A stretch of DNA of 64,000 bases from Alteromonas sp. BL110 (GTDB lineage Bacteria; Pseudomonadota; Gammaproteobacteria; Enterobacterales; Alteromonadaceae). Below are positions 3,412 through 63,137 of the stretch, piece after piece. The notes under the pieces were generated by a model. It had not been told where the DNA came from and made no database searches. It saw only the letters and a list, made by a program, of their open reading frames with translations. Where the stretch lies: contig NZ_CP031967.1 of assembly GCF_003443615.1 (NCBI RefSeq), positions 2,170,001-2,234,000 of the forward strand. The letters are read 5' to 3'. Numbering within the stretch: position 1 is the first letter of the stretch; each line of letters starts with the position of its first letter. A program made the position numbers and the translations under genes.

Positions 3412-3542
3412 TGTTTTGCCTACTAAAAAAAAGAGGCATATTTATAAACGAGAATGCATCTTATTTGAAGTGCTGTTTTCTTGTTTGATAGAAAATTTAA
3501 GGTTAACGACATTATTTATTTCTTTTCCATAGAGCCTCCTAT

Positions 3543-3743: not shown

Positions 3744-5429
3744 ATGCAGTCTATTGCCATAGTAATACTGGGCATCATTGGAATGTTGCTCGGTTGGTTC
3801 GTATATTCGAAGTTTATTGCGAACCGCATATTCAAGTTGGATGATAGTTTTGTAACCCCAGCGCATACCATGCAAGATGGTGTCGACTTTGTTCCTACCA
3901 ATAAAGTAGTGTTATGGGGTCACCATTTTACCTCAGTGGCAGGTGCTGCGCCGATAGTAGGGCCAGCAATTGCCGTTTACTGGGGCTGGGTTCCCGCTGT
4001 ACTTTGGGTGGTATTTGGCACGATTTTGTTTGCCGGAGTACACGACATGGGAGCTTTGTGGGCCAGCGCACGACATAAAGGAAAATCCATGGGGGCGCTA
4101 TCCGAGAGCGTTATTGGTAAACGATCACGCTCCCTCTTCATGATAGTGATCTTCCTCGTTCTCTTAATGGTTAATGCCGTTTTCGGCGTAGTTATCGCTA
4201 ATTCCTTTGTTTCCCAACCTAATGCAGTTTTTCCCGCATGGATGGCAATTGCCGTTGCACTTATTATTGGTCAACTGTTGAAGCGTAACTTCAGCCTTAT
4301 TCCTTTGTGTATTGTTGGTATTATTGTTCTCTATGCATCGGTATATGCGGGTAGCTATATTCCACTGAGCTTGCCAGAAACCATGTTTGGCCTAGCCGAT
4401 AAAGCGAACTGGATAATCATTCTTTTTGTTTATGCAGCTATTGCATCACTACTACCGGTTTGGATGTTGTTACAGCCTCGTGACTTCATTAACGGCATGC
4501 AGTTGCTTGTTGGCTTATTCTTACTTTACGGCGCCGTATTTTTTGCTATGCCGGATATCACTGCCCCGGCATTTAACACGCAAACCGCGGTAGATTCACC
4601 AAGCCTCATCCCGTTGCTGTTCGTCACCATTGCGTGTGGTGCGGTTTCTGGCTTCCACGGCATAGTGTCATCAGGGACCAGTTCTAAGCAGCTTGATAAA
4701 GAAACTGACGCGCGCTTTGTTGGTTATTTAGGTGCAATTGGTGAAGGTTCACTTGCGCTTATTACCATTGTCGCGGTAAGTGGCGTTGCGTTTGCTGCTT
4801 CTCCTGAAGAATGGCACGAAGTATACAGCCACCTAGGCGCTGGCAGCGTTGGCGCATTTATCACAGGTGGTGCGAATCTTATTCAGCAGGGCTGGGGGCT
4901 ACCAGTAGATTTCTCTTCAACTATTCTAGCCGTTATGGTTGTCCTGTTTGCGGGCACCACTATGGATTCAGGTGTACGTCTACAGCGCTACATCATACAA
5001 GAATGGGGCGACATTTATTCTATTGGTGCATTGAAAAACGGCGTAATAGCGACACTTGTGGCGGTCGGCTGCTGTTTGTTACTTGCATTCGGTGCAGGCG
5101 GTGCATCAGGTAGTGGCGGTATGATTATTTGGCCGCTATTTGGTTCGACTAACCAAATCCTTGCTAGCCTTACTCTGTTAGTTATATCAGTTATGTTGAT
5201 CAAGCTGGGCCGTCCTGCAAGGTATACGTTAATACCCATGGTATTTGTATTGATCATGGCTTTCTTCGCTGGTCTGATAAAGCTCAAAGAGTACTACGTA
5301 GAAGGAAACTATTTGTTAGTGTTCTTAGACGCAGTAGTGCTGGTGGTTTCAGTGCTCGTAATGCTCGAAGCCTTCTCTGTAGTGTCTAAGCTTAAAAAGG
5401 AGTCGAAACACAAGGCCCCACAAGGATAA
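3744..5429 (+). CDS. cstA: Carbon starvation protein CstA-type transporter
   Basis: The 561-residue polytopic membrane protein carries the CstA signature: LDDSFVTPAHTMQDGVDFVP near residue 32, followed by WGHHFTSVAGAAPIVGPAIAV, then GVHDMGALWASARHKGKS and FHGIVSSGTSSKQL. CstA homologues take up peptides and, in enterobacteria, pyruvate during carbon limitation. The protein is shorter than E. coli CstA (about 700) because the C-terminal part is reduced; shorter forms are common in other proteobacteria. About 14-16 hydrophobic helices are visible by eye. It is a monocistronic unit with a terminator at 5518-5545. No CRP site could be recognised with confidence upstream. Confidence 0.88.
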   Translation: MQSIAIVILGIIGMLLGWFVYSKFIANRIFKLDDSFVTPAHTMQDGVDFVPTNKVVLWGHHFTSVAGAAPIVGPAIAVYWGWVPAVLWVVFGTILFAGVHDMGALWASARHKGKSMGALSESVIGKRSRSLFMIVIFLVLLMVNAVFGVVIANSFVSQPNAVFPAWMAIAVALIIGQLLKRNFSLIPLCIVGIIVLYASVYAGSYIPLSLPETMFGLADKANWIIILFVYAAIASLLPVWMLLQPRDFINGMQLLVGLFLLYGAVFFAMPDITAPAFNTQTAVDSPSLIPLLFVTIACGAVSGFHGIVSSGTSSKQLDKETDARFVGYLGAIGEGSLALITIVAVSGVAFAASPEEWHEVYSHLGAGSVGAFITGGANLIQQGWGLPVDFSSTILAVMVVLFAGTTMDSGVRLQRYIIQEWGDIYSIGALKNGVIATLVAVGCCLLLAFGAGGASGSGGMIIWPLFGSTNQILASLTLLVISVMLIKLGRPARYTLIPMVFVLIMAFFAGLIKLKEYYVEGNYLLVFLDAVVLVVSVLVMLEAFSVVSKLKKESKHKAPQG

Positions 5430-5698: not shown

Positions 5699-6880
5699 GT
5701 GTCAGATATCATTTTACTAGGGCAAAATTTTCTAGCGCTATTCATGGAATCAGCGCCATGGCTGCTATTGGGATTACTAGTTGCAGGAGTGATGCATGAG
5801 CTAGTGCCTGTTTCTTTTCTTGAAAAGCATATGGGCAGCGCATCATTTGGCTCTATTAGCAAAGCCGCTATTATCGGTGCGCCTTTGCCACTTTGTTCAT
5901 GCGGTGTTATTCCTGCCGCGCTTGGTTTACGTCGAAGCGGTGCTTCTAAGTCATCAACAATTTCCTTTTTAGTTTCTACACCGGAAACAGGTGTAGATAG
6001 TGTGTCAGTTTCCTACGCATTGTTGGGTCCGTTGTACGCTATTGTAAGGCCTGTTGCGGCGGTGGTAAGTGCAATTTACGCAGGTTTAATGGTACGTTTT
6101 TTTGCAGAGCGCAACGAACTAACTGAGCAGAGTGAACCTGTACCTGCTTCAGCCACCTCATCGTGTTGCAGCAGCAAGACAGAGCCAGAGGTTGTAAAGA
6201 AACCCGCAGCCGATGCCCAATGCTGCGACAGCGAGTCTTCGCATCAGCATGCTCACTCTACGCAACAGTATGATCACAATGTATCGCGCGAGCCATCTCA
6301 GGCAGCTAAGGTATTGTCTTATGCAAGCGGGAAGCTGCTCGAAGATATTGTGGTGTGGCTACTGATTGGATTAGCGCTCGCCGCCGCCATTAAAACCTGG
6401 GTGCCTACCGACTTTCTTACCCAATGGGGAGATGGTGTAGTCGCCATGCTTGTTATGGCACTGATAGGCATTCCTATGTACATATGTGCTACCGCGTCTA
6501 CACCGCTTGCGGTTGGCTTTTTGGCTGCAGGGCTATCACCTGGTGCCGTGCTAGTATTTTTAATGGCAGGGCCTGCCACTAACGTATCAACCATGGGCAT
6601 GATAAAACAAGAAATGGGGGCTCGAACTCTTGCGCTATATTTGTTCAGCGTTATCTCTGCAAGTATCGGTTTTGGTTACGCACTAAACTACTTAGTGTCC
6701 TCGCTATCTCTATCTTCAATGATAAAAACAACAAGCCACGTACATGGGCACGGCGCAGGTGTTCAGATAATCTATGGCTTATGTGCAATTTTGCTGGCAG
6801 GATTAATGTTGAGGCTGGGGGTGAAAAAGCTTCGGCAATATCGTCATAATCAAGAGCAGCACTCGGCATGCTGCGGTTAA
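5699..6880 (+). CDS. SO_0444-type Cu/Zn efflux permease
   Basis: The 393-residue membrane protein belongs to the DUF318/ArsP-like permeases. The first half has GAPLPLCSCGVIP with the conserved Cys-x-Cys, and the second half has the mirror motif GIPMYICATASTPLA, as in the SO_0444 family proposed to export copper or zinc. Between the halves is a hydrophilic loop (about residues 150-205) full of Cys and His (SSCCSSK, AQCCDSESSHQHAHS), and the protein ends in HSACCG, both likely metal-sensing or metal-delivering parts. The start is a GTG at 5699 preceded by AGAGAGG; the ATG two bases earlier is in another frame. It is monocistronic; the metal specificity is inferred from the family. Confidence 0.82.
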   Translation: MSDIILLGQNFLALFMESAPWLLLGLLVAGVMHELVPVSFLEKHMGSASFGSISKAAIIGAPLPLCSCGVIPAALGLRRSGASKSSTISFLVSTPETGVDSVSVSYALLGPLYAIVRPVAAVVSAIYAGLMVRFFAERNELTEQSEPVPASATSSCCSSKTEPEVVKKPAADAQCCDSESSHQHAHSTQQYDHNVSREPSQAAKVLSYASGKLLEDIVVWLLIGLALAAAIKTWVPTDFLTQWGDGVVAMLVMALIGIPMYICATASTPLAVGFLAAGLSPGAVLVFLMAGPATNVSTMGMIKQEMGARTLALYLFSVISASIGFGYALNYLVSSLSLSSMIKTTSHVHGHGAGVQIIYGLCAILLAGLMLRLGVKKLRQYRHNQEQHSACCG

Positions 6881-7028
6881 CAGTAACGCTGCAGCTGCCT
6901 TTCCTCATTCAAGCGCTCAAATGATATTTACAGAGCGCTTGTATATCCCGCTCTATTATCCATAATAGTCGCTCAACTTCTTTAAATTAAAACGCGTTTA
7001 AACCTACAGGGACGCTTGGAATTATTAC

Positions 7029-8111
7029 ATGCTTTTACTTATTGTGTACGTCTTCATTGCACTGGGCTTTTCTTTTTTGTGCTCAATCGCAGAGGCTGTA
7101 ATTCTGAGTGTTTCGTCAGCGTATATCTCGGTATTGGAGAAAGACGGCAAAGCCAGCGGTGCATTGCTTCGTAAACAAACCGATAATATTAATACTCCGC
7201 TATCTGCTATTTTAACGCTTAACACTATTGCACATACTATGGGTGCTGCCGGCGCTGGTGCACAAGCAGCGGCCGTATTCGGGGACGCCTATTTAGGTGT
7301 TATCTCAGCAGTCCTTACTCTGCTTATTCTTATCTTTTCAGAAATTATTCCAAAGACACTTGGCGCTACCTATTGGCGAACGCTTGCGCCAGTAACGGCA
7401 TACTTTCTCAAATACCTTTCAATCGTGCTTTTGCCTTTCGTTAAAATGTCTGAACTCATGACTAAGGGCTTTAAAGAAGACAGCCCGCTTCGCGGGTTAA
7501 GCCGCAGTGAACTGCACGCTATGGCTGAATTGTCAGGACAGGAAGGGCAGTTAGCCAATCATGAAGCGGCGTTTTTGCAGAGCTTATTAAGCTTGCACGA
7601 GCTTAGAGTTAAAGATGCTATTACCCACCGAACAGCGCTGTTTAAAGTATCAGAGTCGATGACGGTGGAAGCGTTTTTCCATAAGCACGCCAATATTGAG
7701 TTTTCACGAATCCCCGTGTTCGAAGATAGTGACTCTGAGAACATCACTGGCTACGTCATGCGCTCTGACTTGTTGGTCGCGCAGGCGAGAGGAAACACCG
7801 ACAAGCCACTTTCAGAATATGCCAAAGACATGGTTACCGTGTTAAACACTATGCCGCTGTCAGTCACCTTCGAGCACTTCATCAATAAGCACGTACATAT
7901 GCTGTTGGTAGTCGACGAGTACGGTGGTTTAGAAGGAGTACTTACGCTAGAAGACTTGCTAGAACGCTTGTTAGGTGTTGATATCGTAGATGAAAAAGAC
8001 ACCACGGTAAGCATGCGTAGGCTTGCTAAAATGATGACCAAGCGTAAAGAGCAGATGATGATCAAAAATGTGCCTGATGCCTCACTTGAAAACTCCCCGA
8101 GGAAAAAATAG
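7029..8111 (+). CDS. CNNM/CorC-type membrane protein with CBS pair
   Basis: The 360-residue protein has an N-terminal DUF21/CNNM membrane domain (about 1-165, three to four helices, with the family motifs SIAEAVILS and FSEIIPKTLGA) and a cytoplasmic CBS-domain pair (about 190-320, ending VVDEYGGLEGVLTLEDLLE). The usual C-terminal CorC_HlyC domain is missing, as in the shorter members of the family. CNNM proteins are linked to Mg2+ or Co2+ transport. Only 45 bp separate its stop from the next gene start, so the two may be co-transcribed, though their functions do not obviously connect. Confidence 0.82.
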   Translation: MLLLIVYVFIALGFSFLCSIAEAVILSVSSAYISVLEKDGKASGALLRKQTDNINTPLSAILTLNTIAHTMGAAGAGAQAAAVFGDAYLGVISAVLTLLILIFSEIIPKTLGATYWRTLAPVTAYFLKYLSIVLLPFVKMSELMTKGFKEDSPLRGLSRSELHAMAELSGQEGQLANHEAAFLQSLLSLHELRVKDAITHRTALFKVSESMTVEAFFHKHANIEFSRIPVFEDSDSENITGYVMRSDLLVAQARGNTDKPLSEYAKDMVTVLNTMPLSVTFEHFINKHVHMLLVVDEYGGLEGVLTLEDLLERLLGVDIVDEKDTTVSMRRLAKMMTKRKEQMMIKNVPDASLENSPRKK

Positions 8112-8156
8112 CCTATATTGCAACGAAGGCCTGAACCGTTATTAAGGATGATCGTG

Positions 8157-9365
8157 ATGATTAATACAACATCGAAAACAGAGAAATGGAATAAGGCTCG
8201 AAAAATACACCAAGAATTACACGGTCAAAGAGCTAAGCAAAAGACGCTGGCATTAGCTTTATCCGTGTTACTTACTTCTGGCTATACTATTGAGGCAGCG
8301 GCGCAAGAATTAAGCATTCCCTGCGATGAAGCTGAAGAGAAAGCCCTAGCTGAGGCGAAAGCCAATGAAGTTGAGCGAATAACCGCATTCACACCTGCTA
8401 CTCCTCTTGAGCGAGTGAATCCAAGATACCCGACTACAGCCGTGAGAAAAGGCCGTGAAGGATGGGTTAGATTAAGCTACGTTATCGATGAAGAAGGTCG
8501 CGTGAAAGACCCTGTCGTCGAAGATTTCTTCGGAAGCCCGTCTTTCAAGCGCAGCGCACTATCAGCAGTTAAAAAGTGGCAGTATAACCCTGCATTAAAA
8601 GATGGCGAACCTACTCAACAATGCCATCAAGCGGTTCAATTGGATTTTGCTATTGACGGAAAAACTGGCGCCACTCGCAAATTTATTAAAGCGTATAAAA
8701 ACGTAGATGAAATATTCAAAGCAGGTAATATTGAAGCGGCAGACGAAGCGCTTAAAGAGCTATTGAGTTGGGACACTTTAAATCGCTACGAGAATGCGTG
8801 GTTGCTCAACTTGGAGTCACAGATTGCAAGAGAACAAAGCGACATTGAAAGAGAAGCGAAAAGCCTAACGCGATTACTTTCCAGTAATGGACAAAAGCGT
8901 TTTAACAATGCCGTTTTTGATGACGATTATGTGGCTTACGTACTTCAGAGGAAAATACTTCTTGATGCGCAGCGTGGATATTACGCCGAAGCTCTAAAAT
9001 CGTACAGCAGGCTTCAAGAAATGGAAGAGCAACAACCGCGTATTGAGGAAGTTGCCGCAATAGTAAATCAGATTAAAACATCTATTGCGTCTGAGAAAAA
9101 CCTTCAGGTACCCGTAAGCATGGGAGACAACGGACGTTGGTTCCACACGCTGGTGAGAAACCAGTTTGCTTTTAATAATATACAGGGTGAACTTGATACT
9201 GTTGAAGTACGCTGCGATTCTCATAGAGAAAAGTTCACCGTGGCCGAGGCTCATGTTTGGCATATTCCACAAAGCTGGGGGCAATGCCAGGTGATGGTGA
9301 AAGGGGACAGTGAGACAACATTTGATTTAGTCGAAGTTGCCAAAGGTCTGGCTTCGGCAGGCTGA
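8157..9365 (+). CDS. Periplasmic TonB C-terminal domain protein
   Basis: From the preferred ATG at 8157, with AAGGA 9 bp before it, the product has 402 residues; the frame is open 13 codons further upstream but without a good ribosome site. A hydrophobic segment (about 28-45) followed by AAAQ is a signal peptide or anchor. A TonB C-terminal-type domain follows (RVNPRYPTTAVRKGREGWVRLSYVIDE in spaced form, then SALSAVKKWQYNPALKDGEP). The rest, about 190-400, is a helical region of unknown role. Without the proline-rich spacer and short cytoplasmic anchor of true TonB, it is more likely an envelope protein that borrowed the fold than an ExbB/D partner. Confidence 0.75.
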   Translation: MINTTSKTEKWNKARKIHQELHGQRAKQKTLALALSVLLTSGYTIEAAAQELSIPCDEAEEKALAEAKANEVERITAFTPATPLERVNPRYPTTAVRKGREGWVRLSYVIDEEGRVKDPVVEDFFGSPSFKRSALSAVKKWQYNPALKDGEPTQQCHQAVQLDFAIDGKTGATRKFIKAYKNVDEIFKAGNIEAADEALKELLSWDTLNRYENAWLLNLESQIAREQSDIEREAKSLTRLLSSNGQKRFNNAVFDDDYVAYVLQRKILLDAQRGYYAEALKSYSRLQEMEEQQPRIEEVAAIVNQIKTSIASEKNLQVPVSMGDNGRWFHTLVRNQFAFNNIQGELDTVEVRCDSHREKFTVAEAHVWHIPQSWGQCQVMVKGDSETTFDLVEVAKGLASAG

Positions 9366-9383
9366 GCTTTGAAAGCCTTAAGC

Positions 9384-10610
9384 TTAGAGCTTTGCTGTTA
9401 ACGCCACTTGAAATAGGTGTTCAGTATATTCTTTATTAGGCTGAAAGAAGCGCAAATTTTCTTGATGACCTGAATTTAGCTGCCATTCTGTTGTTACGGA
9501 AAAATGAGAGGTCACGTCGTACTTTACGCTAAAAGTATAGGCGTACCCTCTACTGCCATTTGGGTCGTACATAGTGTTGTCATTATCACTCACTCGATAC
9601 CAGTCTATGCGTGCTGCCGCGTTTAAGCCCTCCAGTCCCAGAGCAGTCAAATCTAAGGAAGCGGCAACATAAGCACTCGCAAAGTCATTATCGACAATAC
9701 TTTCACCCATAAGGGTGTCGCCATACAGAAATTGAGAAAACAGTGTTAACTCGGGGCGGGGCAAATAGCGCAGTGTTAACGAATGAAAGCGTGTATGCCA
9801 TGCGTAGATGCTGTCTGGGTCGACAATATTTTCATCCGCATTGTTGTCGTAATAATAATAGCGCATTTCAGCGCTCCGTTTGTACGCCACATGCGCTCCG
9901 AAATAATAGCCAAAGCGATTGTCTATTTCTCTAAAAGGTTCGGTCCATGCAGGGGCATTTAGTTTATCTTCATCGATAACACCTGGTATAGGCAAAAAAT
10001 TCACTCTATCGTTGTAAAGCGACTGTCTGTCGTGAAGTGCAAAGCCACGCCAAGAGAGCAGCGTTCCAGTGCTATCGTTTCCTTTAAAAAAGCTGGCTAA
10101 TACTTTCCAAGACCAGTTGCTTCGCACTTGTCGGCCATTTTGTCTAACGCTTAGTTCAATGCCACCGGTTCTGAGTTCTTCACCAATCCAACTGTTTATG
10201 GCTGAGTTAGTCAGAAAGTGAGGAGATAGCCAGCCAAAGTCGGTGTTTTCGGCTGAAATAGCAGGGTAAAAGGCACCCATCTTTACTTCTGGCTTTATAG
10301 ATGAGGCGCTAAGGGGCCGATATTTTAGGTATAGCTGAGAAAAGTTAAGCCGTTCTTCGCCGTCGCTGTAAGTGTTTAAAACACCAGATAATGTCCAATC
10401 ATCAGACAAACGCTGCTGCGTTGAAATAATGGCTTGAGAGAGGTGTAAACCATCACCATCAAATCGCTGGTGGTTTTGACCAAAGTTCTGAAAGCTTTGC
10501 GTGTTTTCTTTCAGAGCCCATGTTCCACGCAACAAAAAATCTGTTTCTGCATAGCTTGCTATAGAAAAAACTAACGAAAATAGGGCCAATGGATGAGTGA
10601 CAAACCGCAT
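9384..10610 (-). CDS. Predicted outer-membrane beta-barrel protein
   Basis: The product (408 residues from the ATG at 10610) has a signal peptide (about 1-21, SYAETD) followed by amphipathic beta strands throughout, rich in aromatic girdle residues (YYYYDNN, FSQLYLKYRP, YAYTFSVKYDV). It ends in a strand finishing VALTAKL, that is, without a terminal Phe. It looks like a porin-like or alginate-type barrel of unknown specificity. Its ATG overlaps the stop of the upstream cupredoxin gene by one base (TGATG), so the two are translationally coupled and probably work together, for example as an envelope copper or electron-transfer unit. No family could be named. Confidence 0.6.
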   Translation of the reverse strand: MRFVTHPLALFSLVFSIASYAETDFLLRGTWALKENTQSFQNFGQNHQRFDGDGLHLSQAIISTQQRLSDDWTLSGVLNTYSDGEERLNFSQLYLKYRPLSASSIKPEVKMGAFYPAISAENTDFGWLSPHFLTNSAINSWIGEELRTGGIELSVRQNGRQVRSNWSWKVLASFFKGNDSTGTLLSWRGFALHDRQSLYNDRVNFLPIPGVIDEDKLNAPAWTEPFREIDNRFGYYFGAHVAYKRSAEMRYYYYDNNADENIVDPDSIYAWHTRFHSLTLRYLPRPELTLFSQFLYGDTLMGESIVDNDFASAYVAASLDLTALGLEGLNAAARIDWYRVSDNDNTMYDPNGSRGYAYTFSVKYDVTSHFSVTTEWQLNSGHQENLRFFQPNKEYTEHLFQVALTAKL

Positions 10611-11266
10611 CAATAGTCGCCGAAACCAGAATCGAACCCGTCATCCCTGATTATGTTTGTATTAAGTGCCCATGTTACTTGAGTATCGCCATTCACAGTG
10701 ATGGATTGTGTTGGTAACGCTTTTTCACCTTCCACCTGGGGGTGCCAAAAACGGACGGTGTATTCACCATGAGGAAGCGAAATTGAAGACTGCCCCTCAT
10801 TACCAGTTTTTCCAAAATAAGGAGAGTCGGCGACAACAATATATCCCAGCATCCAATCATGAATATTACAGCCAATATCCACAATACCTGCATTTTCAAA
10901 GCGTAAAGGCTCTGCCGTAAACTCTTTATAAAGCTTTAGTTCGAATTGTTTCGTAGGTGAAAATGAATAGACGTGGTGAAACAAATTGTCCGCATTAGGG
11001 AAAGTCACTTCGGTGCCAGCTTTAACAACAAGGACGTGAGGTACAAATTGTTTATCTATTTGATTCATTACGGCTGCTTCTTGGTGTGGCATCTGATGCT
11101 CACCCACCTCAAATTGAGGCTCAAATAGAAACACGCCGTTGTCGACTGGCTCGCCATCGCTATCATTAAGCGTTATAGAAAACGTTGCGGTTTGATCATC
11201 TTGTCCTAAGACCGTACTTGAACAAGCCATAAAAAGAAGGGCAACGAAAAGTGTTTTGTATTTCAT
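10610..11266 (-). CDS. Periplasmic cupredoxin (methylamine-utilization-like)
   Basis: The 218-residue protein has a signal peptide with a possible lipobox-like Cys (FMACSS) at about 15. Its central plastocyanin-like domain carries a full type 1 copper set: His in FPNADNLFHHVYSF, then GCNIHDWMLGYIVV giving Cys, His and Met spaced C-x2-H-x2-M. A C-terminal segment (SLPHGEYTVRFWHPQ) resembles the carboxypeptidase-regulatory-like fold found in 'methylamine utilization protein' annotations. It is expected to carry electrons or copper in the periplasm; no methylamine dehydrogenase genes are present, so the pathway name should not be taken literally. It overlaps the downstream barrel gene. Confidence 0.72.
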   Translation of the reverse strand: MKYKTLFVALLFMACSSTVLGQDDQTATFSITLNDSDGEPVDNGVFLFEPQFEVGEHQMPHQEAAVMNQIDKQFVPHVLVVKAGTEVTFPNADNLFHHVYSFSPTKQFELKLYKEFTAEPLRFENAGIVDIGCNIHDWMLGYIVVADSPYFGKTGNEGQSSISLPHGEYTVRFWHPQVEGEKALPTQSITVNGDTQVTWALNTNIIRDDGFDSGFGDY

Positions 11267-11479
11267 CCAAGTACCTCATCCACGTACCTTGTCCACGTAC
11301 TGGGACGGAAAGCATTAAAAGAAAGCGCCAGCTGACTTAACCATAGAATAAACCCAGTAATATACAACTGCGCTATACCTTTAGTATAAGACCTTGTCGA
11401 CTGTGACTTTATTTCAGCTACGGTGAACTTTTCGAGGTAGTATTTTTACAAACGAGAAAGCGTTTCTGTAAGGCAGTGG

Positions 11480-12160
11480 CTAAAGCTGAGAGAACTTTCT
11501 TACCAAGTTATGATACACATGATGGAGTCCATCAAGCTGCTCTCGCTCTGCAGTACCGGCGTTAAGTAGCGATTGAATACTTTGGTCAAGCTGAAAAAGC
11601 GTTTCTCGCATTTGCTGGTCGCTCACCATACTTTGCAACCAGGTGATAGCGGCAATACGCTCGCCTTTAGTAACAGGCGTTACCTTGTGTAGGCTTGAAG
11701 ATGGATAGAGTATGGCGCTTCCCGCATCGCATTTAACTTTCTGCTCGCCAAATCCTGTTTGAATAACAAGTTCGCCGCCTTCGTACTCGTCTTTATCGGT
11801 AAGAAAGATAGTCATCGACATATCGCTGCGTAAAACATCGGGCGTATTTGGTATACGCATAATGGCGGCGTCTACGTGATAACCATAGGTTTGTGACTCG
11901 CTATAGCGGTTAAAGCACGGCGGGAAAATACGTTGAGGAAGGGCGGCGGAGATAACTTTGGGATGGCTACCTAATTTACTCAGCAATTGGTTGGCAAGCT
12001 CTTGAACACGTTTGTCTTGTGCATCTGCCTGGCCGTTATTTTTGACGCCTGCAGCCATACCCATTGCCGTATTTTTGCCATCAACAAAAGGAACATCAGT
12101 AAGCTGCTGACGAAACTGAGCAACATCGCTTTTCGTCAATAAGTCATCAATAATAATCAT
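11480..12160 (-). CDS. piuC: PKHD-type Fe(II)/2-oxoglutarate hydroxylase PiuC/YbiX
   Basis: The 226-residue protein matches the PiuC/YbiX family in length and motifs: YGYHVDAAIMR gives the H-x-D pair, SSLHKVTPV gives the distal His, and GERIAAITW contains the Arg that binds 2-oxoglutarate. It is an iron-dependent dioxygenase of unproven substrate, nearly always next to a catecholate siderophore receptor (fiu-ybiX in E. coli, piuA-piuC in Pseudomonas). Here it lies directly downstream of such a receptor on the same strand, with a terminator-like hairpin between, so most transcripts may stop before it and it may be expressed at a lower level. Confidence 0.88.
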   Translation of the reverse strand: MIIIDDLLTKSDVAQFRQQLTDVPFVDGKNTAMGMAAGVKNNGQADAQDKRVQELANQLLSKLGSHPKVISAALPQRIFPPCFNRYSESQTYGYHVDAAIMRIPNTPDVLRSDMSMTIFLTDKDEYEGGELVIQTGFGEQKVKCDAGSAILYPSSSLHKVTPVTKGERIAAITWLQSMVSDQQMRETLFQLDQSIQSLLNAGTAEREQLDGLHHVYHNLVRKFSQL

Positions 12161-12187
12161 GTTTTCAACGCTTTTTAGAATGTTTTT

Positions 12188-12223
12188 GATATAAAAAGAC
12201 CTAGGCAGTTGCCTGCCTAGGTC
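12188..12223 (-). terminator. Hairpin/terminator between siderophore receptor and piuC
   Basis: Perfect 10-bp stem (12198-12207 with 12214-12223, GACCTAGGCA/TGCCTAGGTC) with a 6-nt loop, followed on the minus strand by TTTTTATATC. It sits between the receptor stop and the piuC start, so it could act as a partial terminator inside the operon. Confidence 0.7.
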
Positions 12224-12232
12224 ATGCTAGCA

Positions 12233-14527
12233 TTAAAATTCGTAGCTAACGGTACCTGTAATGTTGCGACCATCACCGATATACATGAAGGCGCCTGAAC
12301 GGTAGGCTGCCGTCCAGTATTCTTCGTCAAACAAGTTTCCAATGTTAACACGGAAAGTCAGTGACTCTGAGTGATAGTAGTTAGCGAATAAGTTAACCAC
12401 TTGATAATCAGGAACTACGATAGAGTACTCGCCGGTTTCAGCGCTATAGCCCGCTGCAGTATCTGGCTGGCCGCCATACATTTCTGACTGGTAGCTGTAG
12501 TCTCCACCAAAGGCAAACTTCTCATTAGGCTGATAGCGCATCTGAATGTAGAAGCTTTCGTCTGCGAAGTTACTTAGCGCAAGGCCGATGTTATCTTCGC
12601 TGTAAGATTCAAGAATCTCAGAATCCATAAATGCAGCAGATGCCTGAATACTAAGCTTATCTGTGATATCACCACTTAAGCCAAACTCAATACCTTCTAC
12701 GCGGTTTTCACCGGTGTTCAATGTACCTAGCGTTGAATAAGCGTCACCTACGCTTTCGTGTACGTCGCTCTTAGTGATGCGGAATAGCGCAGCATTTGCC
12801 ACAAGTTTTTCGTCAAATAGTGACCACTTAGTACCTAGCTCAATATTTTCAACTTGCTCAGGGTCTGCTTGTGCTGCTTGCTCTGGTGTACCACACAAAC
12901 CACCGTAGCCACAGTTTGCACCAAGATCTGATTCACCACCGTTGATGTTAGTTGCTGTGCTATACGAAGCGTAGATGTTGCCGTTTTCAGTGACATCGTA
13001 AACTAGCCCTAAATGCCCGTTGTACAGTTCATCCGAGAACTCGTAAAGCTCGCTAGAAGTTTGGTTACTATAGTCATAGCTATCTATGCGAAGTCCCGCG
13101 AAAACATTAAAGTTATCGGTAAGCTCAAAGGTGTCCATGACGTATAGTGAGTAGGTTTCCATGTCGAATAGGGCATCAGCATCACCACGGGTATAAGCTT
13201 TACCCATTAGCGAGTTGATATTATCAACCATGTTACCTTCACCATCTAGCAAGCAATAGCTTTCAGATACACCGCGGCGGCCACTGGTTAAACAGTTTGA
13301 AGGATTGGTGTAATCCATATTGAACACGCCGTTGTCTACCGACTCATCTGTATATTCAAAACCGAATACGAAGCGGTGATCAACGCCTGCGAAAGCCGTA
13401 TCCCAGAAAAGGTTGAACTGTGTAGTTACGTAATCAACTTCCTGCCAACCTTGGTGGTTACTTAACGATAGTGTGTAGGCACCCGGTGCGGTAGGGTCAG
13501 TCGCGTCACGGTTAGTGCCACTCATACCCGTTGTAATGTATTCGTTTTCCGTTTTACCTACACGAGTTGCGTTATAAAAACGCACGTTATCGCTAATGTC
13601 ATACTCAGTACGCAAGGTGAATGTGGTCACTTCCGAGTTTTGGAAGTCTTCGTCTTGTGCATAAACCGGAATATCTTCAAGCGGGTAGCCTGCATCACGA
13701 TCGTAATAGCTACCTAAGTCAGGAATGTCTTCTGCATTGAGGTAATACAAGTCGCCAGTGAATGACAAGCGGTCGGTAGGCTGGTTGACATAAGAAAGCT
13801 GCACACCTTCACGGTCGCGCTCGATACCTTCACGTCCAGGTTTATCTTCTGATGAGTAAAGTCCGTTTAAACGTACCGCGCTGGTTTCAGTAAGCGTTTT
13901 GTTTAAATCGACGGTTAAACGCGTGTGCTCATCGGAACCAACCGCGGCATCAACACGACCGAAGTTATAAGCGGTCGACGCTTTTTTGGTGATAGAGTTT
14001 ACCGCACCACCTGAAGAACCACGCCCGGCAAAGGTAGAGCTAGGGCCTTTAGTAATTTCAACACGTTCTGTTGCGAAGCTTTCACGGGTTGTCATACCTG
14101 GATCGCGTAGACCATCAACAAATACGTCGCTACGCGCTTCATGACCACGAATAATATAGCGGTCACCAAAAGCATTACCATTCTCACCTGTACCTAAGGT
14201 CACGCCTGCCTGTGCTTGCAGTATATCCTTTAGGTCTGTTCTACCGCTCTCCTGGATTTGGTCTTGAGTAAGAACGCTAATGGTTTGTGGTGTATCAACT
14301 AGGTCAGCCAAGCGACGAGGGTCGCCAGATTTGTTGTAACGGTAGATAGATTGCTGTACGCCGTGAATCTTAATCAACTCTATGGCTTCGTCAGATGCCG
14401 CTTTACATTCAGCTGACGTGGCGTCGCTGCATGTTTCTACTTCTTCCTGCGCCATTACAGCACCACTACCAAATGCCAAAGCGGCGGCAATAGTTTGCGC
14501 GCCCATAGTTAGTTTAGTGTTTTTCAT
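12233..14527 (-). CDS. fiu: TonB-dependent catecholate siderophore receptor, Fiu-type
   Basis: The 764-residue outer-membrane receptor has a signal peptide (about 1-26, AVMAQEE), a plug domain with DTPQTISVLTQDQIQESG, the YIIRGHEARSDVFVDGLRD segment and VEITKGPSSTFAGRGSSGGAVN typical of siderophore receptors, then a 22-strand barrel ending with Phe (GTVSYEF). Similarity in the plug and its piuC neighbour point to the Fiu/PiuA group, which import catecholate-iron complexes using TonB energy. A short acidic insertion containing two Cys follows the signal peptide (ETCSDATSAECKAAS), which is unusual. A Fur box lies 64 bp upstream of the start, consistent with induction under iron limitation. Confidence 0.88.
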   Translation of the reverse strand: MKNTKLTMGAQTIAAALAFGSGAVMAQEEVETCSDATSAECKAASDEAIELIKIHGVQQSIYRYNKSGDPRRLADLVDTPQTISVLTQDQIQESGRTDLKDILQAQAGVTLGTGENGNAFGDRYIIRGHEARSDVFVDGLRDPGMTTRESFATERVEITKGPSSTFAGRGSSGGAVNSITKKASTAYNFGRVDAAVGSDEHTRLTVDLNKTLTETSAVRLNGLYSSEDKPGREGIERDREGVQLSYVNQPTDRLSFTGDLYYLNAEDIPDLGSYYDRDAGYPLEDIPVYAQDEDFQNSEVTTFTLRTEYDISDNVRFYNATRVGKTENEYITTGMSGTNRDATDPTAPGAYTLSLSNHQGWQEVDYVTTQFNLFWDTAFAGVDHRFVFGFEYTDESVDNGVFNMDYTNPSNCLTSGRRGVSESYCLLDGEGNMVDNINSLMGKAYTRGDADALFDMETYSLYVMDTFELTDNFNVFAGLRIDSYDYSNQTSSELYEFSDELYNGHLGLVYDVTENGNIYASYSTATNINGGESDLGANCGYGGLCGTPEQAAQADPEQVENIELGTKWSLFDEKLVANAALFRITKSDVHESVGDAYSTLGTLNTGENRVEGIEFGLSGDITDKLSIQASAAFMDSEILESYSEDNIGLALSNFADESFYIQMRYQPNEKFAFGGDYSYQSEMYGGQPDTAAGYSAETGEYSIVVPDYQVVNLFANYYHSESLTFRVNIGNLFDEEYWTAAYRSGAFMYIGDGRNITGTVSYEF

Positions 14528-57522: not shown

Positions 57523-57846
57523 TTAAAGTGGGAGTAATTCATTTTTAGCTGCTTTTAAAAGATCCTCCCTTTCTTTTGGTGGATGACCAGATTTCACCAC
57601 CTTTTCAAAAACTTTATAAGCATCCGTTTTACTTCCATATGCTCGCTTGTTTGTCTCGTCATTCACCCATGCATATACAATAACCTTTGATTCAAGATGG
57701 TAGCGGAAAAAAAGTCGATACTGTTGAAAAAACTTTGCTCGAAACCAGTGTTTATTGTTATCGCCTAATGTATTCCCTTGGCGGAAATTTGCCTGAGGAC
57801 GTAGAGTATTTCGGCTACTAATGTATAGAGGAACTTCATAGTCCAA
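57523..57846 (-). CDS. YhaV-family RNase toxin, probable 5'-truncated remnant
   Basis: The 107-residue product matches the C-terminal two-thirds of YhaV: FRQGNTLGDNNKHWFRAK, QQYRLFFRYHLESKVIVYAWVNDE and YGSKTDAYKVFEKVVKSGHPP. E. coli YhaV is 154 residues; about 45 N-terminal residues have no counterpart. The only start is a TTG with no ribosome site, and upstream the frame runs 25 codons without ATG or GTG to a stop inside the ATP-grasp gene. The PrlF/SohA antitoxin is missing. This looks like a toxin gene cut by the arrival of the neighbouring peptide cluster, though translation of a shorter product cannot be excluded. Its composition is AT-rich. Confidence 0.7.
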   Translation of the reverse strand: MDYEVPLYISSRNTLRPQANFRQGNTLGDNNKHWFRAKFFQQYRLFFRYHLESKVIVYAWVNDETNKRAYGSKTDAYKVFEKVVKSGHPPKEREDLLKAAKNELLPL

Positions 57847-57919: not shown

Positions 57920-58918
57920 CTAATGTTTTAAAAGCAGTGCCACCAATTTGTCTGTTATATTCAGGCCGGTATCGTTCTCTACTTTCAAAAAGTAAGGGCT
58001 CGGGTTTGCCTCTAGAAAAAAGTACTTTCCTTTCGCACTTTTGCGCCAGTCTATCGCACACCAGTGCATACCTAATGCTTTGCATATTTTAATAGCCAGA
58101 CGCTGGACCTCGTTTGGGATAATAGTCACAGACACACTGGCATTGTCATCGTTTCTATAATCTAGTTCGCTTGAGTCAATTTGTACGCTTAGCACATCAT
58201 CGCCAAGTACATAGCTACGTACATTTTCGCCTGCAATATACTTTTGAAAGGTAACAGGGCGTTCACTTAAAAGCGTATTTAGTAGTGGGCGCATATTCGG
58301 CTGTTTATTCACAAACTGTGCGGTTCGACCGCCGCGTACGGGCTTATATATAACGTCTCGCATATTGCTACAAAACTGCGAAGCAACCTCGGGCGCATTG
58401 CCTATAAAGGTGTAGGGGATATGTGCACCTAGTTTGCCAGCAACGCGTGATTGATAAGGCTTACACTGGTGGCTTCGAACAGCGTCTATAGAGTTCACCC
58501 ATTTTATGTTGGTGTAGCTAAACCAACAAAGTAAAGTACTTGCTCGCTCTTGCTCTACCCATCCTGTGCTTTCTAACAGACGAGACGCTGTGTCATCACG
58601 TTTATTACGCAGTGCTTGAGGATCTGCGTAGCTATCGTTACTAGTATTCTCGCTTGGGGCTTTTAGCGGTAAACCGGGCAAATACTCATGCCAATAAGCA
58701 GCTTTAGTGTTTGAAAAAGTGACTCTAGGTTGGTCGCACAAAGAGGGAGAGCTGAAATGGATTAGCCCGTCATCAAAATCAGGGTCATAGCTAATGGCCC
58801 AAGCTGAACCGAAATGTTGCGTATTGGCAAAGTAAAAAGGCGTAGCCGTTTGACATAGGGCTTTCGCAATATGTTGGATTTGCGGGTCTTGCTCATTTCC
58901 TAATAAAGCTACGTGCAT
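57920..58918 (-). CDS. RimK/MvdD-like ATP-grasp ligase of a peptide cluster
   Basis: The 332-residue protein has an ATP-grasp core in its second half: KPYQSRVAGKLG, then VIYKPVRGGRTAQF (nucleotide-binding Lys and loop), FQKYIAGENVRSYVLGDDVL, and FFLEANPSPYFLKVENDTGLNITDKL (metal-binding Glu and Asn). The NPSPYF...TGLNITD ending resembles graspetide ligases of the MvdC/MvdD type (NPxGQF...TGLPI), which make ester or amide side-chain links in precursor peptides. The first 130 residues are not recognised and may bind the leader. It lies 118 bp downstream of the precursor gene, after a hairpin. A RimK-like tail-adding ligase is the alternative. Confidence 0.75.
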   Translation of the reverse strand: MHVALLGNEQDPQIQHIAKALCQTATPFYFANTQHFGSAWAISYDPDFDDGLIHFSSPSLCDQPRVTFSNTKAAYWHEYLPGLPLKAPSENTSNDSYADPQALRNKRDDTASRLLESTGWVEQERASTLLCWFSYTNIKWVNSIDAVRSHQCKPYQSRVAGKLGAHIPYTFIGNAPEVASQFCSNMRDVIYKPVRGGRTAQFVNKQPNMRPLLNTLLSERPVTFQKYIAGENVRSYVLGDDVLSVQIDSSELDYRNDDNASVSVTIIPNEVQRLAIKICKALGMHWCAIDWRKSAKGKYFFLEANPSPYFLKVENDTGLNITDKLVALLLKH

Positions 58919-58970
58919 TTACGTTCCTTGCTAGCAGGTTAAAAGTTGAAAGAATCTATTCGTTGTAAAG

Positions 58971-59012
58971 CAACACACGGACATCACAAAGCTATGCTCA
59001 ATCCGTGTGTTG
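58971..59012 (-). repeat. 11-bp perfect hairpin between precursor and ligase genes
   Basis: Arms CAACACACGGA (58971-58981) and TCCGTGTGTTG (59002-59012) enclose a 20-nt loop. It lies in the 118-bp gap after the precursor gene. Without a long U-tract it is more likely an mRNA-stabilising or partial-termination element, which would give more precursor than enzyme. Confidence 0.75.
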
Positions 59013-59036
59013 GCTTAAGCCGTTTGTAAGTGAAAG

Positions 59037-59243
59037 CTAAGACAGAATATCCGGTAGCTTGCCGCCGCCTTCACCAATGGCCATGGTTATATAAACCGGC
59101 TCTTTGGGGGTAGGGCCGACTACCGGTACGGTGTCGCTTAAACGAACACGTAGACCGCCGGATACCTCAAACAGCTGAGCTTCAGCTAAAGCAACGGGCT
59201 GAGTGATTGTTGGTGGGTTGTGATTTAGTTGATGGTGTTTCAT
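59037..59243 (-). CDS. Peptide precursor with double-glycine leader
   Basis: The 68-residue peptide has a leader of 30 residues ending LAEAQLFEVSGG. Counting back from the cleavage site, Gly is at -1 and -2, Val at -4, Leu at -7 and Leu at -12, the classic pattern read by peptidase C39 exporters. The predicted core (31-68) starts LRVRLSDTVPVVGP and ends EGGGKLPDILS; it is rich in Pro, Gly and Val with Ser, Thr, Lys, Asp and Glu available for linking, and has no Cys. AAGGAG lies 8 bp before the ATG, a very strong site. Genes for the C39 exporter and for the ATP-grasp ligase flank it. It is not similar to any named precursor I know. Confidence 0.8.
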   Translation of the reverse strand: MKHHQLNHNPPTITQPVALAEAQLFEVSGGLRVRLSDTVPVVGPTPKEPVYITMAIGEGGGKLPDILS

Positions 59244-59290
59244 AAAGTACGCTCCTTGTAATGGCGTGTTGAGTGAAAAAGTGGATGCGC

Positions 59291-59602
59291 CTAAAGCGAA
59301 ACCACTTCTCGGTAAAGGGTTCGAAAGCAGCAGGCAATAAGTGCTGAACGGCTAGTGATATTGAGTTTTTTATAAATGTTGGCGCAGTGAAACTTAACGG
59401 TTCGCTCGCTAATAAATAGCTCAGAGGCGATCACTTTGTTAGAGCGGCCTTCCATTATTTTGTGCACTACCTGTAGCTCGCGTTTCGACAAACAGTCCAT
59501 AGGAATAACGGTGTCACGAGCGGTTATGCCATTTGCATCTATTTGCATGCGCTCAGCAGCTGTCATCAATACTGCGGGTTCTCTTACTTCATGGTTTTTC
59601 AT
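59291..59602 (-). CDS. Stand-alone LuxR-type HTH regulator
   Basis: The 103-residue protein is mainly a GerE/LuxR DNA-binding domain (about 38-95; LSKRELQVVHKIMEGRSNKVIASELFISERTVKFHCANIYKKL in the family pattern), with a short N-terminal part instead of a receiver or autoinducer domain. It overlaps the end of the exporter gene by four bases (ATGA) and precedes the precursor by 47 bp, so it is made in the same operon and may regulate it. How it senses anything is not visible. Confidence 0.85.
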   Translation of the reverse strand: MKNHEVREPAVLMTAAERMQIDANGITARDTVIPMDCLSKRELQVVHKIMEGRSNKVIASELFISERTVKFHCANIYKKLNITSRSALIACCFRTLYREVVSL

Positions 59603-61875
59603 AGTGTTTCTCCGTGTTTAGCAGATGTTGCGCTTCCTGTTACTTCAGAGGGAGAGCATGGGTGTAATGTGCCGTCTTCCAGACGATAAACCTTGTCTGC
59701 CATGGCGATAGATTGGGGGCGATGCGCCACAATAATCCGGGTCATATTTAAAGATTTGAGGTGGTGATTTATCTGAGCTTCATTGGCCATATCTAGATGG
59801 CTACTCGCTTCGTCTAAGAAGAGAATGTCAGGCTCTTGATATAGCGCTCTTGCTAATAGCAGGCGTTGCTTTTGCCCACCGCTTAAACTGCTACCCATGT
59901 CGCCTACCAGCGAATGATATTGCATAGGCATGTGCATAATGTCCCTATGAATACAGGCAAGTTGTGCTACATAAACCATCTTCTTGAGGTTGGGAACTTC
60001 TTCAAAACAACAGATGTTTTGGCCAATAGTGCCACTTAAGCAAGCGTCCTCTTGAAGCACAGAAGCGATGACTGGACTGGTCGTATTAGGATGCTCAATG
60101 CAGCCTTGTGAAGGCCGGTATAGGCCCATTAAGCATTTAAGTAACGTGCTCTTTCCACTGCCACTGCTACCGATAATGGCTACGATTTCGCCAGTATTTA
60201 CTGAAAGTGTCAGGTTGTTAAATACCCACTCACCATTCTCCCCATAGCGGTAGCTAAGTGACCTCACCCTAAGCGCGGTAGCATCTGGCAAAGTGCTATC
60301 GTCGAGCGCGCTATTTTCGGGCAAGACAGCATCAGGCAGGTTAAATAGGGGAGTGCTAGACGAGTCTGAATTGGAAGCCGAGCGATTAGACGCATGTGTA
60401 TTTTGCACGGGGAGCGAACGCTCTGCGCTATATAGCGGGTGAGTTTTGATTTTTTGCTCTACGGGTGTAAGTAAAATGTCGCTTAAGCGGTTAAAGTGAA
60501 CGCCTAACATATTAAGCTCAATAAGCTTATTAACTATCCCGTCGAGCGCACCTACAAACCTCGTCTTATATGCCATAAAAGCCAGCAACATGCCTATTGA
60601 AAGGGAGCCTTGCATGACAAGGTTGGCGCCAATGTAAACCACTACTAGATTTTCAACACCGAACAGCAATTGGTTTGCCAGTGCGCTACCTATGTTAAAT
60701 TTCCCTAAAGTGATGTCTTTATTGAGCGTTGCAACTAGCTTGTTTTGCCAAAGGCTGTGGCGCTGTATCTCTTGCCCATATACGCGAATAGGTAAAATGG
60801 CTCTTACGCTTTCCATAAAGTGACTTTGTTCAGAGGCGGCCAGGGCAATGCGCTCCGTGGTCAACCTTTTAATAAATGGCAGGAGTCCAAGGCGTATGGC
60901 TAAATAGACGAGCATAATCACTACAACAACCATTGTTAGCTTGAAGGAATATAAGCTCATCACTGCCAAGGTGACGATTGCCATTACTCCATCAAGCATC
61001 GCGGTAACGACCCCAGTAGTTAAAAACTCCCGAATACTCGCCACTGAACCAAAGCGCGACACCACATCACCAATATGGCGCTTATCAAAATAGTCTAAGG
61101 GAAGGGCTAAAAGATGTTTAAATACAGAGGCAGACATCTGCAGTTGAAGGCGAGATGAAACGGACAAGATAACGAACTTTCTTATACCGCTTGTAAAGGT
61201 TTCTATAACCAGTAATAGGGCAAAGCCAATAGCGAGCGCTTTGAGCAAGGCATCGTTGTTGTAGATTAATACATCATCCACCACCGTTTGCATGTAGTAA
61301 GGTGCGGCAAGGGCAAATAGCTGCAGCACTATTGATAATGCGAAAAGCGTTAGTAAGTTGCGTTTGAAGCCGATGGCGCGGGAGAAAAACTGTGTAAGCC
61401 CAAGTCGGGGTGCAGACTTTTTAGGGCTGAATGTGTCGCTTGGTGAGACCTCAAGCGCGATACCCGTGATGTACTTCGAGGCTTCTGCAAGATTAAGCTT
61501 TCTCTTTCCTAGCGCTGGGTCATGGATAAAAATATGTTTCCCTTTCACTTTCGTCAAAACAACAAAGTGATTCATATCCCAGTGCAATATGGCTGGGCAA
61601 GATAGCTGCACAAGATGCTCCATTTCTATCTTAACTGCTCGGGGTTGAAACCCCAGTTCACTGGCAATTCGCATTACGTCTTTTAAGGTTGTACCTCGCA
61701 ATGAAACGGATATGCTTTGACGCAAAGTATTAAGATCCCGTTTATCAGAGTAGTACTGTGCAATCATTGCCATACAAGCTAGTCCGCACTCTGCCGCTTC
61801 GCTTTGCAAAATAACCGGTACCCTGCTTCTTGTATGAAAAAGATGTGACGAAAGAGGGGTGGATAAACTCATCAT
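59599..61875 (-). CDS. Peptidase C39-containing ABC exporter (PCAT)
   Basis: The 758-residue protein has an N-terminal C39 peptidase domain (about 15-145): QSEAAECGLACMAMIAQYY with catalytic Cys, HWDMNHFVVL with His, and HDPALGKRKL with Asp. Six transmembrane helices (about 170-450) and an ATPase with IIGSSGSGKSTLLKCL, SLSGGQKQRLLLARAL, DILFLDEASSHLD and IIVAHRP follow. Such exporters cut double-glycine leaders and export the core. A Ser/Asn-rich insertion (about 485-520) precedes the ATPase. It is preceded by an HlyD adaptor gene two bases away, and the neighbouring 68-residue peptide is the obvious cargo. Confidence 0.93.
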   Translation of the reverse strand: MMSLSTPLSSHLFHTRSRVPVILQSEAAECGLACMAMIAQYYSDKRDLNTLRQSISVSLRGTTLKDVMRIASELGFQPRAVKIEMEHLVQLSCPAILHWDMNHFVVLTKVKGKHIFIHDPALGKRKLNLAEASKYITGIALEVSPSDTFSPKKSAPRLGLTQFFSRAIGFKRNLLTLFALSIVLQLFALAAPYYMQTVVDDVLIYNNDALLKALAIGFALLLVIETFTSGIRKFVILSVSSRLQLQMSASVFKHLLALPLDYFDKRHIGDVVSRFGSVASIREFLTTGVVTAMLDGVMAIVTLAVMSLYSFKLTMVVVVIMLVYLAIRLGLLPFIKRLTTERIALAASEQSHFMESVRAILPIRVYGQEIQRHSLWQNKLVATLNKDITLGKFNIGSALANQLLFGVENLVVVYIGANLVMQGSLSIGMLLAFMAYKTRFVGALDGIVNKLIELNMLGVHFNRLSDILLTPVEQKIKTHPLYSAERSLPVQNTHASNRSASNSDSSSTPLFNLPDAVLPENSALDDSTLPDATALRVRSLSYRYGENGEWVFNNLTLSVNTGEIVAIIGSSGSGKSTLLKCLMGLYRPSQGCIEHPNTTSPVIASVLQEDACLSGTIGQNICCFEEVPNLKKMVYVAQLACIHRDIMHMPMQYHSLVGDMGSSLSGGQKQRLLLARALYQEPDILFLDEASSHLDMANEAQINHHLKSLNMTRIIVAHRPQSIAMADKVYRLEDGTLHPCSPSEVTGSATSAKHGETL

Positions 61876-61877
61876 GA

Positions 61878-63131
61878 TTAAAGCTTCCCTTTAATGCTAT
61901 AAAGCGGTTCCATTAACCATTCCATAAGCGTACGTTGGCTTAATTGAACATCCGCGGAAAAGGTCATGCCCGCTTTCAATGAAATACTGTTGCCGTAAGC
62001 CAATACTTCGTTTGTATTTAGGGTGGCAGTAACCAAATAGGCTGGCTCGCTAATTGAAATAGGTACATCGGTAAGTTCTCCCGGTAAGACAAGCGATGGA
62101 GAAATATTTACTATCTCGCCAAACTGCACACCAAACTTTTGATAGGGGAACGCGTCATATCGTATATGTAGAGCTTGTCCTTCTCGCAAAAATCCTGCAG
62201 AGCGCACGGGTACCGCAATTCGCGCTTGAATGTCAGCATTTTGAGGGAGCAGTGTGAGTAGGGGGCGAGAGCTGTCAACGGTATACCCCGTTCTAACATG
62301 AAGGCCTGATATTACGCCGCTGCGAGGCGCATAAATTATCTCTTCTGCATTGCTTTTGTGCGTCACAATTTGTTGAGTGAGATCGCTATAAGTGTTCTTT
62401 ATGTTTGCTAGCTCGTTGGCGTGTTTCTCAGGCAATGTAGCAAGTTCATGACTTATTGCTGCTATGTTGGCTTGCTCGTTACTCCAATCCTTTTTAGCTA
62501 AAGCAAGTTTCTGCTCTGCATTCAAACGTTGGAGCGTATAGGTTTCAAAGTCGGTACGGCTAATATGCCCTTCATCCATTAGGGTTTGTGCTTTTTCCCA
62601 TTGCGTGGATGCCAGAAGCCACTGTGATTGGGTTAAAGTAATAATGTCATGCAACGCCGTTGAGTTATGCTTTGCCTGGGAAAGCTGCTCTTCCAATCGC
62701 TGTTGCTGAGCTAGGTGCAGAGTGCGCAGTCGTTCAATACTTTGGCGAGTTCGGTTTTGTTTCGATTCTAGTTCGGCAAGTAATTGGGTACTGACTCTAT
62801 GGCCTAACGCGTCTTTACTGCTATAGCTGATTTTTAATAGCGGTGCGCCTTTTTCCACTAATTGACCTTCACTGGCTATAACGTCGAGTATCTTTCCTCG
62901 CCTTGCGTCTGAATAAAGCTTGAAGACTCCATGACTGGGTTCTAGCCATCCACTTACCGAAGCTTTTCGTGCGTAACTTTCCATGTTCAGGTAAACAGCA
63001 ACCGCCACAACCCACACGACAAGCAGCCCAGCTAGTGCTAAATAGGCAGGTTTAGGCGTCATTAAAAAACTGCCCTCAACTGTGTTTGATTGCTCATCAA
63101 TAACTTCTTTTCTAAACAACCCTGTTCTCAT
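61878..63131 (-). CDS. HlyD/CvaA-type membrane fusion protein
   Basis: The start is set at the ATG 63131 because AGGG lies 6 bp before it; another ATG two codons earlier touches that site. The 417-residue protein has a single transmembrane helix (about 28-50), a lipoyl-type segment (KLYSDARRGKILDVIASEGQLVEKG), a long coiled coil (about 100-250), and the second half-lipoyl and barrel part with VISGLHVRTGYTVD and IRYDAFPYQKFG. It links the C39 ABC exporter to an outer-membrane channel such as TolC, which must be encoded elsewhere. It is the first gene of the operon. Confidence 0.92.
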   Translation of the reverse strand: MRTGLFRKEVIDEQSNTVEGSFLMTPKPAYLALAGLLVVWVVAVAVYLNMESYARKASVSGWLEPSHGVFKLYSDARRGKILDVIASEGQLVEKGAPLLKISYSSKDALGHRVSTQLLAELESKQNRTRQSIERLRTLHLAQQQRLEEQLSQAKHNSTALHDIITLTQSQWLLASTQWEKAQTLMDEGHISRTDFETYTLQRLNAEQKLALAKKDWSNEQANIAAISHELATLPEKHANELANIKNTYSDLTQQIVTHKSNAEEIIYAPRSGVISGLHVRTGYTVDSSRPLLTLLPQNADIQARIAVPVRSAGFLREGQALHIRYDAFPYQKFGVQFGEIVNISPSLVLPGELTDVPISISEPAYLVTATLNTNEVLAYGNSISLKAGMTFSADVQLSQRTLMEWLMEPLYSIKGKL

Positions 63132-63137
63132 TTTCAT

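Follow-up and report, generated by a model that had tools for sequence, protein, structure and literature searches.

Among described systems, the closest to the locus reported here is that of plesiocin (PsnB-PsnA2, graspetide group 2), a bicyclic pattern with two nested esters in each repeat. The residues of a DxR motif define graspetide synthetases in general. The motif TTxxxxEE is what we take to define the plesiocin group, the plesiocin peptide itself being observed as TTLAIGEE. Surveys report several links as the typical outcome for characterised synthetases (PMC13097080), and a single ester bond as the sole possibility in two of the new precursor clusters of one survey (PMC8939145). We describe here an operon of Alteromonas sp. 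BL110, located in a stretch of 64,000 nucleotides (contig NZ_CP031967.1, positions 2,170,001 to 2,234,000; hereafter the window) of a complete genome of 4,458,618 bases in one contig. Its five genes, all confirmed on the minus strand at 57920-63137, encode an HlyD adaptor, a C39 ATP-binding cassette (ABC) exporter, a LuxR-type helix-turn-helix (HTH) protein, a 68-residue peptide and an ATP-grasp ligase. Sequence comparison suggests that this operon makes a reduced plesiocin-type graspetide, and we consider it likely that the product would carry one ring, an ester between T53 and E58 of the peptide.

The core sequence VYITMAIGEGGG is homologous to the plesiocin repeat. The PsnA2(14-38) peptide of the Protein Data Bank (7drm_E, LFIEDLGKVTGGKGGPYTTLAIGEE) ends with PYTTLAIGEE, which aligns with VYITMAIGEG of the window. 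The window motif keeps the inner Thr/Glu pair (T53 and E58), the outer pair being replaced by I52 and G59. With a single donor/acceptor pair at the motif positions, two nested esters are therefore not expected. An alignment of precursors comparing Thr/Ser/Lys with Asp/Glu had been proposed in the original prediction; among 24 aligned precursors, T53 and E58 are both invariant, together with A55, G57, G60 and G61. Thus a conserved donor lies N-terminal of a conserved acid in a precursor adjoining the ligase, as in the graspetide class. The motif TTxxxxEE is present in a second cluster of the same genome and absent from the window core, which reads ITMAIGEG; the peptide is therefore not filed as a member of the plesiocin group. 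It most likely works like one.

The ligase points to the same relationship. In a comparison with solved structures, PsnB is the best match of its family profile (161 bits; the runner-up, PruB, 9bou, has 103). By fold alone, PsnB cannot be told apart from AMdnB, MdnC or PruB. D253 and R255 are invariant in 29 homologues and aligned with the D and R of PsnB, and the ligase belongs to the graspetide-synthetase group. Several graspetide-type NCBIfam models score far under their cut-offs, namely the best match TIGR04187 (103.9 bits against 350), MvdC TIGR04185 (60.9 against 425) and MvdD TIGR04184 (58.5 against 475), and the TIGR04187 cut-off is reached by none of its three matches in the BL110 genome. 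The graspetide-type ligase of the original prediction, whose NPxxxF/TGLxI end reads as described, is supported by comparison with solved ligases, and the operon product is very probably a graspetide. The further proposal, that of a separate graspetide class or of a novel type of ATP-grasp product, is not supported: the core shares homology with the plesiocin repeat, and full TTxxxxEE repeats lie beside relatives of the ligase. Since the ligase is related to PsnB and the core to plesiocin, we reject a novel type of product.

The operon comprises the following features (aa, amino acids; GG, double glycine).

61878-63137, minus strand: HlyD-type periplasmic adaptor, 419 aa (Pfam HlyD_3, 6.1e-15)
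59599-61875, minus strand: peptidase-C39 ABC exporter, 758 aa (Pfam, NCBIfam)
59291-59602, minus strand: stand-alone LuxR/GerE-type HTH regulator, 103 aa (GerE, 4.9e-22, residues 37-89)
59037-59243, minus strand: precursor peptide, 68 aa, with GG leader (1-30) and core (31-68) (sequence, homologue profile)
59154-59243, minus strand: leader MKHHQLNHNPPTITQPVALAEAQLFEVSGG, predicted C39 cut after G30 (read from the sequence)
59061-59090, minus strand: reduced plesiocin motif I52-T-M-A-I-G-E-G-G-G61, predicted ester T53-E58 (alignment, coupling, homology to 7drm_E)
58969-59015, minus strand: mRNA hairpin in the precursor-ligase gap, possibly an attenuator or a processing site (folding, paired changes)
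57920-58918, minus strand: ATP-grasp graspetide synthetase, 332 aa, with D253-x-R255 (Pfam RimK-like ATP-grasp, 1.9e-10)

All five genes were correctly anticipated, and Pfam backs the four larger ones. The adaptor starts at 63137, the previously given 63131 being the next in-frame ATG; it scores 119 bits with NCBIfam TIGR01843, under the cut-off of 208.65. The exporter exhibits the Pfam domains Peptidase_C39 (9.5e-35, residues 19-147), ABC_membrane (4.3e-35) and ABC_tran (5.4e-26); its best NCBIfam match is TIGR03796, with 443 bits against a cut-off of 853. In the LuxR-type protein, Pfam recognises the HTH domain alone. The genes had been described as separated by tiny gaps, which is accurate for the first two junctions (a 2-bp gap between HlyD and C39, a 4-bp overlap between C39 and LuxR) and not for the last two (47 bp between LuxR and peptide, 118 bp between peptide and ligase). 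The GG leader reads as described, with hydrophobic residues at -4, -7 and -12, a pattern typical of such leaders. It is paired with an exporter whose C30, H103 and D119 sit at the places of the C39 triad and presumably act as its catalytic residues; cleavage itself is predicted. The exporter is no novelty, because exporters of the C39/NHLM type are already reported to be common next to a number of graspetide groups, including group 2 (PMC13097080; PMC8939145).

The 68-residue peptide is without a match in Pfam and without a meaningful one in NCBIfam, and none of seven related precursors scores over a cut-off in NCBIfam or Pfam. Its core of 38 residues ends with VYITMAIGEGGGKLPDILS. The open reading frame (ORF) is more than a chance occurrence, as indicated by the co-location of its profile with the ligase (below) and by mainly synonymous codon changes: over the last 22 codons of 12 sequences, 597 synonymous and 117 non-synonymous pairwise differences were counted, the pairs not being independent. 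Among 146 related genomes, 47 carry the ligase at an E-value of 1.6e-33 or better, the next distinct ATP-grasp matches beginning at 1.5e-15, and a precursor match is found in 46 of these 47. Of the 48 ligase loci, 47 have a precursor match on the same strand no more than 1 kb away, and 48 of the 51 precursor matches adjoin a ligase. The profile (24 rows) was built from peptides beside ligases, partly of the same species, and therefore tests co-location, not independence of discovery. The ligase exception (G028; L108, 982-1176) is an Alteromonas relative with an intact ligase and a GG peptide of unrelated core, without T..GE..GG. The peptide matches away from a ligase comprise one at a contig end by a ligase fragment and two weak ones (E-values 0.001 and 0.0099). 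The original prediction had named beforehand the occurrence of ligases without the peptide, and the converse, as what would break their link; 1/48 ligase loci and 3/51 peptide matches are unpaired. From this co-occurrence the peptide is likely the ligase substrate, as had been proposed, and its GG leader stands beside a C39 exporter.

The outer positions of the motif, 1 and 8 (I52 and G59 in the window), vary together in relatives, the outer donor and the outer Glu tending to be both present or both absent. Small ORFs on the ligase strand and no more than 3 kb from the ligase were scanned for motif copies through the anchors A-x-G and GG, blind to positions 1, 2, 7 and 8. This gave 154 matches, of which 12 without the inner pair were dropped and 142, including repeats of the same species, were kept. 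With Thr or Ser at position 1, position 8 is Glu in 82 of 84 copies and Asp in 2; without them, it is Glu in 0/58 (34 Gly, 19 Asp, 5 others). Among unique motifs, Glu occupies position 8 in 27/28 with the donor versus 0/12 without (Fisher 2.3e-9). In database proteins (the best 120 of 150, partly overlapping the genome set; 6 of 195 matches dropped for lack of the inner pair), the corresponding figures are 125/125 versus 1/64, or 22/22 versus 1/17 for unique motifs. Seven precursors mix both kinds of repeat, and six of them, all but P0159, obey the coupling. The HPF leader motif, in the 24-row alignment read by eye, is present in 6/7 rows with the position-1 donor and in 1/17 without.

Relatives of the peptide fall into two broad patterns. 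In cyanobacteria and several proteobacteria, one or more copies of [TS]TxA[LIV]GEEGG stand behind an HPF-type leader. Most Alteromonas precursors have a single copy, in which position 1 is Ile, Tyr or Phe and position 8 is Gly, Asp or some other residue. A motif peptide lies within 3 kb on the ligase strand at 61 of 80 genome loci. At nine loci without a motif match (L026, L033, L034, L040, L044, L046, L048, L063 and L066), HPF/GG peptides with variant cores were found. No convincing candidate was found at L027, L032, L047, L052, L060, L067, L074, L075 and L076, several of which end at contig ends, and L068 is without a full-length ligase ORF. In the precursor at L026 (7717-7914) the motif is shifted, its Thr standing one residue ahead of the usual place (YTIFEFGEGGG). 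Three Pseudoalteromonas loci (L034, L040, L048) have at least three short MHPFSL...GG peptides downstream of the ligase, with the core [VI]T[MQ]AIPEDG and no outer donor. In Massilia (L072, L079), precursors mix full TTxAIGEEGG with LTWGIGEAGG or ITYAIGEAGG, the latter two lacking both outer residues.

The BL110 genome itself contains a second cluster (L115, G000:C1:1575000-1594000; 6325-12391) with HlyD, C39 exporter, ligase and two precursors. It resembles the window operon in its HlyD and C39 genes, its GG-leader peptides and a ligase 39% identical over the matched part. In contrast to the window, its two precursors carry full TTMALGEEGG and TTMAIGEEGG motifs and MHPFALN leaders, lie downstream of the ligase and are accompanied by no LuxR match. 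A full-length lantibiotic-type dehydratase (1320-4469, minus strand; Lant_dehydr_N 3.3e-118, Lant_dehydr_C 1e-54) is located about 2 kb from this second cluster.

In the mechanism that we propose, the leader would bind the 68-residue precursor to the ATP-grasp enzyme, which would phosphorylate the Glu58 side chain; attack by Thr53 would close a single lactone ring of six residues (T-M-A-I-G-E). The exporter's C39 domain would then cut after Gly29-Gly30, and the 38-residue product would be exported via the C39 exporter, the HlyD adaptor and, presumably, a channel of the outer membrane whose gene lies elsewhere. The predicted product mass is 3956.181 Da, that is 3974.191 minus one water; a single loss of 18 Da is predicted, versus the multiple losses of the original prediction. 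The LuxR-type protein would probably set expression, and the product would most likely block an extracellular serine protease, like characterised graspetides.

Several observations weigh against the single T53-E58 ring and the coupling behind it. The precursor P0159 has ITLALGEEGG, a Glu without the donor. When Asp is counted as well as Glu, the contrast among unique motifs falls to 28/28 versus 5/12 (4e-5), and to 22/22 versus 14/17 (p 0.074) in the database set; it is weaker because many donor-less copies keep Asp at position 8. The coupling is clade-structured, the ligase tree requiring about 4 changes. Three independent pairs on well-supported branches gave two in agreement, none opposed and one without difference (sign test, p 0.5), not significant because about four changes are too few. 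The mixed L072 and L079 were left out of this pair test, L086-L114, mostly of the same species, were left out of the tree, and the Pseudoalteromonas loci L034, L040, L048 and L044, which a pattern requiring Gly at position 6 overlooks, were assigned manually. Taken together, the coupling is suggestive, and it is stronger for Glu than for acidic residues in general. A further candidate acceptor is the conserved Asp/Glu that follows the motif (D65 of LPD in the window peptide). The ring chemistry, the role of LuxR, the target and the outer-membrane partner are predictions. As to the leftover Asp, a published Asp-using synthetase is reported to refuse Glu (PMC12291112), so that, by analogy, a position-8 Asp need not react in a Glu-using enzyme.

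A graspetide with another or an additional ring would join T53 or an upstream Ser, Thr or Lys to D65, or form a lactam between Lys46 and an acid. The core does contain further donors (S36, T38, T45, K46, K62, S68) and acids (D37, E47, D65), and many precursors have an acid or Pro-acid after GG-x-[LYF]. However, T53 and E58 are the sole invariant donor and acceptor in the alignment, the K46 column also has other residues, N, T and R among them, and some rows have N, I, P, G or H in place of D65; we judge such a ring unlikely. Far more improbable is a RimK-like ligase adding an amino acid or joining peptides with no ring closure: Pfam names a RimK-like domain only and the graspetide-type NCBIfam models stay far under their cut-offs, but the ligase groups with graspetide synthetases among solved ligases, which disfavours simple amino-acid addition.

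With the single T53-E58 ring retained, the same chemistry might yield a signal or an antimicrobial instead of a protease inhibitor. A LuxR-type gene and a GG leader would fit a peptide signal or bacteriocin, that gene lies upstream of the ligase in 32/35 Alteromonadaceae loci (31 with all partners, and L023; L026 makes 33), and the fixed chromosomal site suggests a housekeeping-like role. On the other hand, the LuxR-type protein shows its DNA-binding domain alone, with no sensor domain, no immunity gene was identified in the operon, and characterised graspetides are reported as protease inhibitors (PMC8939145). This alternative is possible but rather doubtful. Protease inhibition is by analogy the more probable function, in view of these reports on characterised graspetides and of the marinostatins of marine Alteromonas (PMC5484123).

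The operon occupies a conserved chromosomal site beside hslU. Within 8 kb on each side, hslU is directly downstream in 27/35 Alteromonadaceae loci and an HMG-CoA-reductase-type gene upstream in 23/35. The arrangement of HlyD, C39, LuxR and motif peptide upstream of the ligase is found in 31 of these 35 loci versus 0/45 others under the same rule. Within the genus Alteromonas, 43 of 59 examined genomes carry the operon; the product may therefore be of ecological importance for a common marine bacterium, as opposed to being a strain-specific antibiotic. A mobile cluster was rejected in view of the conserved site and the poor plasmid matches: a protein search of 72,556 plasmid records, with phage and viral collections outside its scope, found 36 with a match, all below 60% identity and the best-covered at 26%. 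Between ligase and hslU, an ORF (57523-57846, minus strand) matches the C-terminal part of a YhaV-type toxin of toxin-antitoxin systems (PF11663, 9.5e-38, profile 55-138 of 138), with relatives in L006 and L009.

The hairpin at 58969-59015 has a folding energy of -23.2 kcal/mol (z -4.71), and 6 of its 15 pairs show changes on both sides across 8 close relatives; L012 does not clearly show it (z -1.65). It may hold the ligase mRNA under the level of the precursor mRNA. A promoter and terminator scan gave 4 promoter-like and 5 terminator-like sites, below the shuffled sequences (10.1 and 7.1), and did not report this hairpin.

These data would fit a single-ring graspetide family derived from two-ring plesiocin-type ancestors in which the outer Thr/Ser and Glu were lost together, probably repeatedly, and in Alteromonas an inherited trait of the hslU side, a scenario whose chances we regard as evenly balanced. 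It would span Alteromonas and kin, the Pseudoalteromonas xTxAIPE[DN]G cores and single Massilia precursors; that the change was a loss and not a gain is inferred, the counts themselves giving no direction. In Alteromonas the family would have its own exporter and regulator, in a genome that also keeps a full two-ring-type cluster. Should the ring be as predicted, a known two-ring protease inhibitor would have a natural relative with one ring, the inner ester alone could be kept by selection, and one genome would pair one-ring and two-ring synthetases for asking how ring number is set. From the coupled outer positions, the pairing of rings in other graspetides could also be tested at the sequence level. 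Literature searches found neither this Alteromonas family nor a natural one-ring graspetide, though either may stand in the 2020/2021 surveys or in supplements.

Among known systems, the microviridins and marinostatins (MdnB, MdnC; MvdC, MvdD) differ from the window, which has neither the TxKxPSD core nor the PFFARFL leader; membership was rejected on the absence of both from the 68 residues and on MvdC/MvdD scores far under the cut-offs, and the original prediction was right on the missing core motif. PruB (prunipeptin-type) is the second-closest solved ligase, and the TIGR04187 ATP-grasp maturases are the best NCBIfam match, yet under the cut-off; the core motif of this type presumably differs from that of the window. 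Plesiocin provides the closest solved ligase and a core that can be aligned position by position, and in both leaders V-[ST] precedes the GG doublet. Plesiocin is described with four repeats (PMC12291112), against one motif copy in the window peptide. Unlike plesiocin, the window has dedicated HlyD, C39 and LuxR genes in a fixed order, and no outer donor or acceptor.
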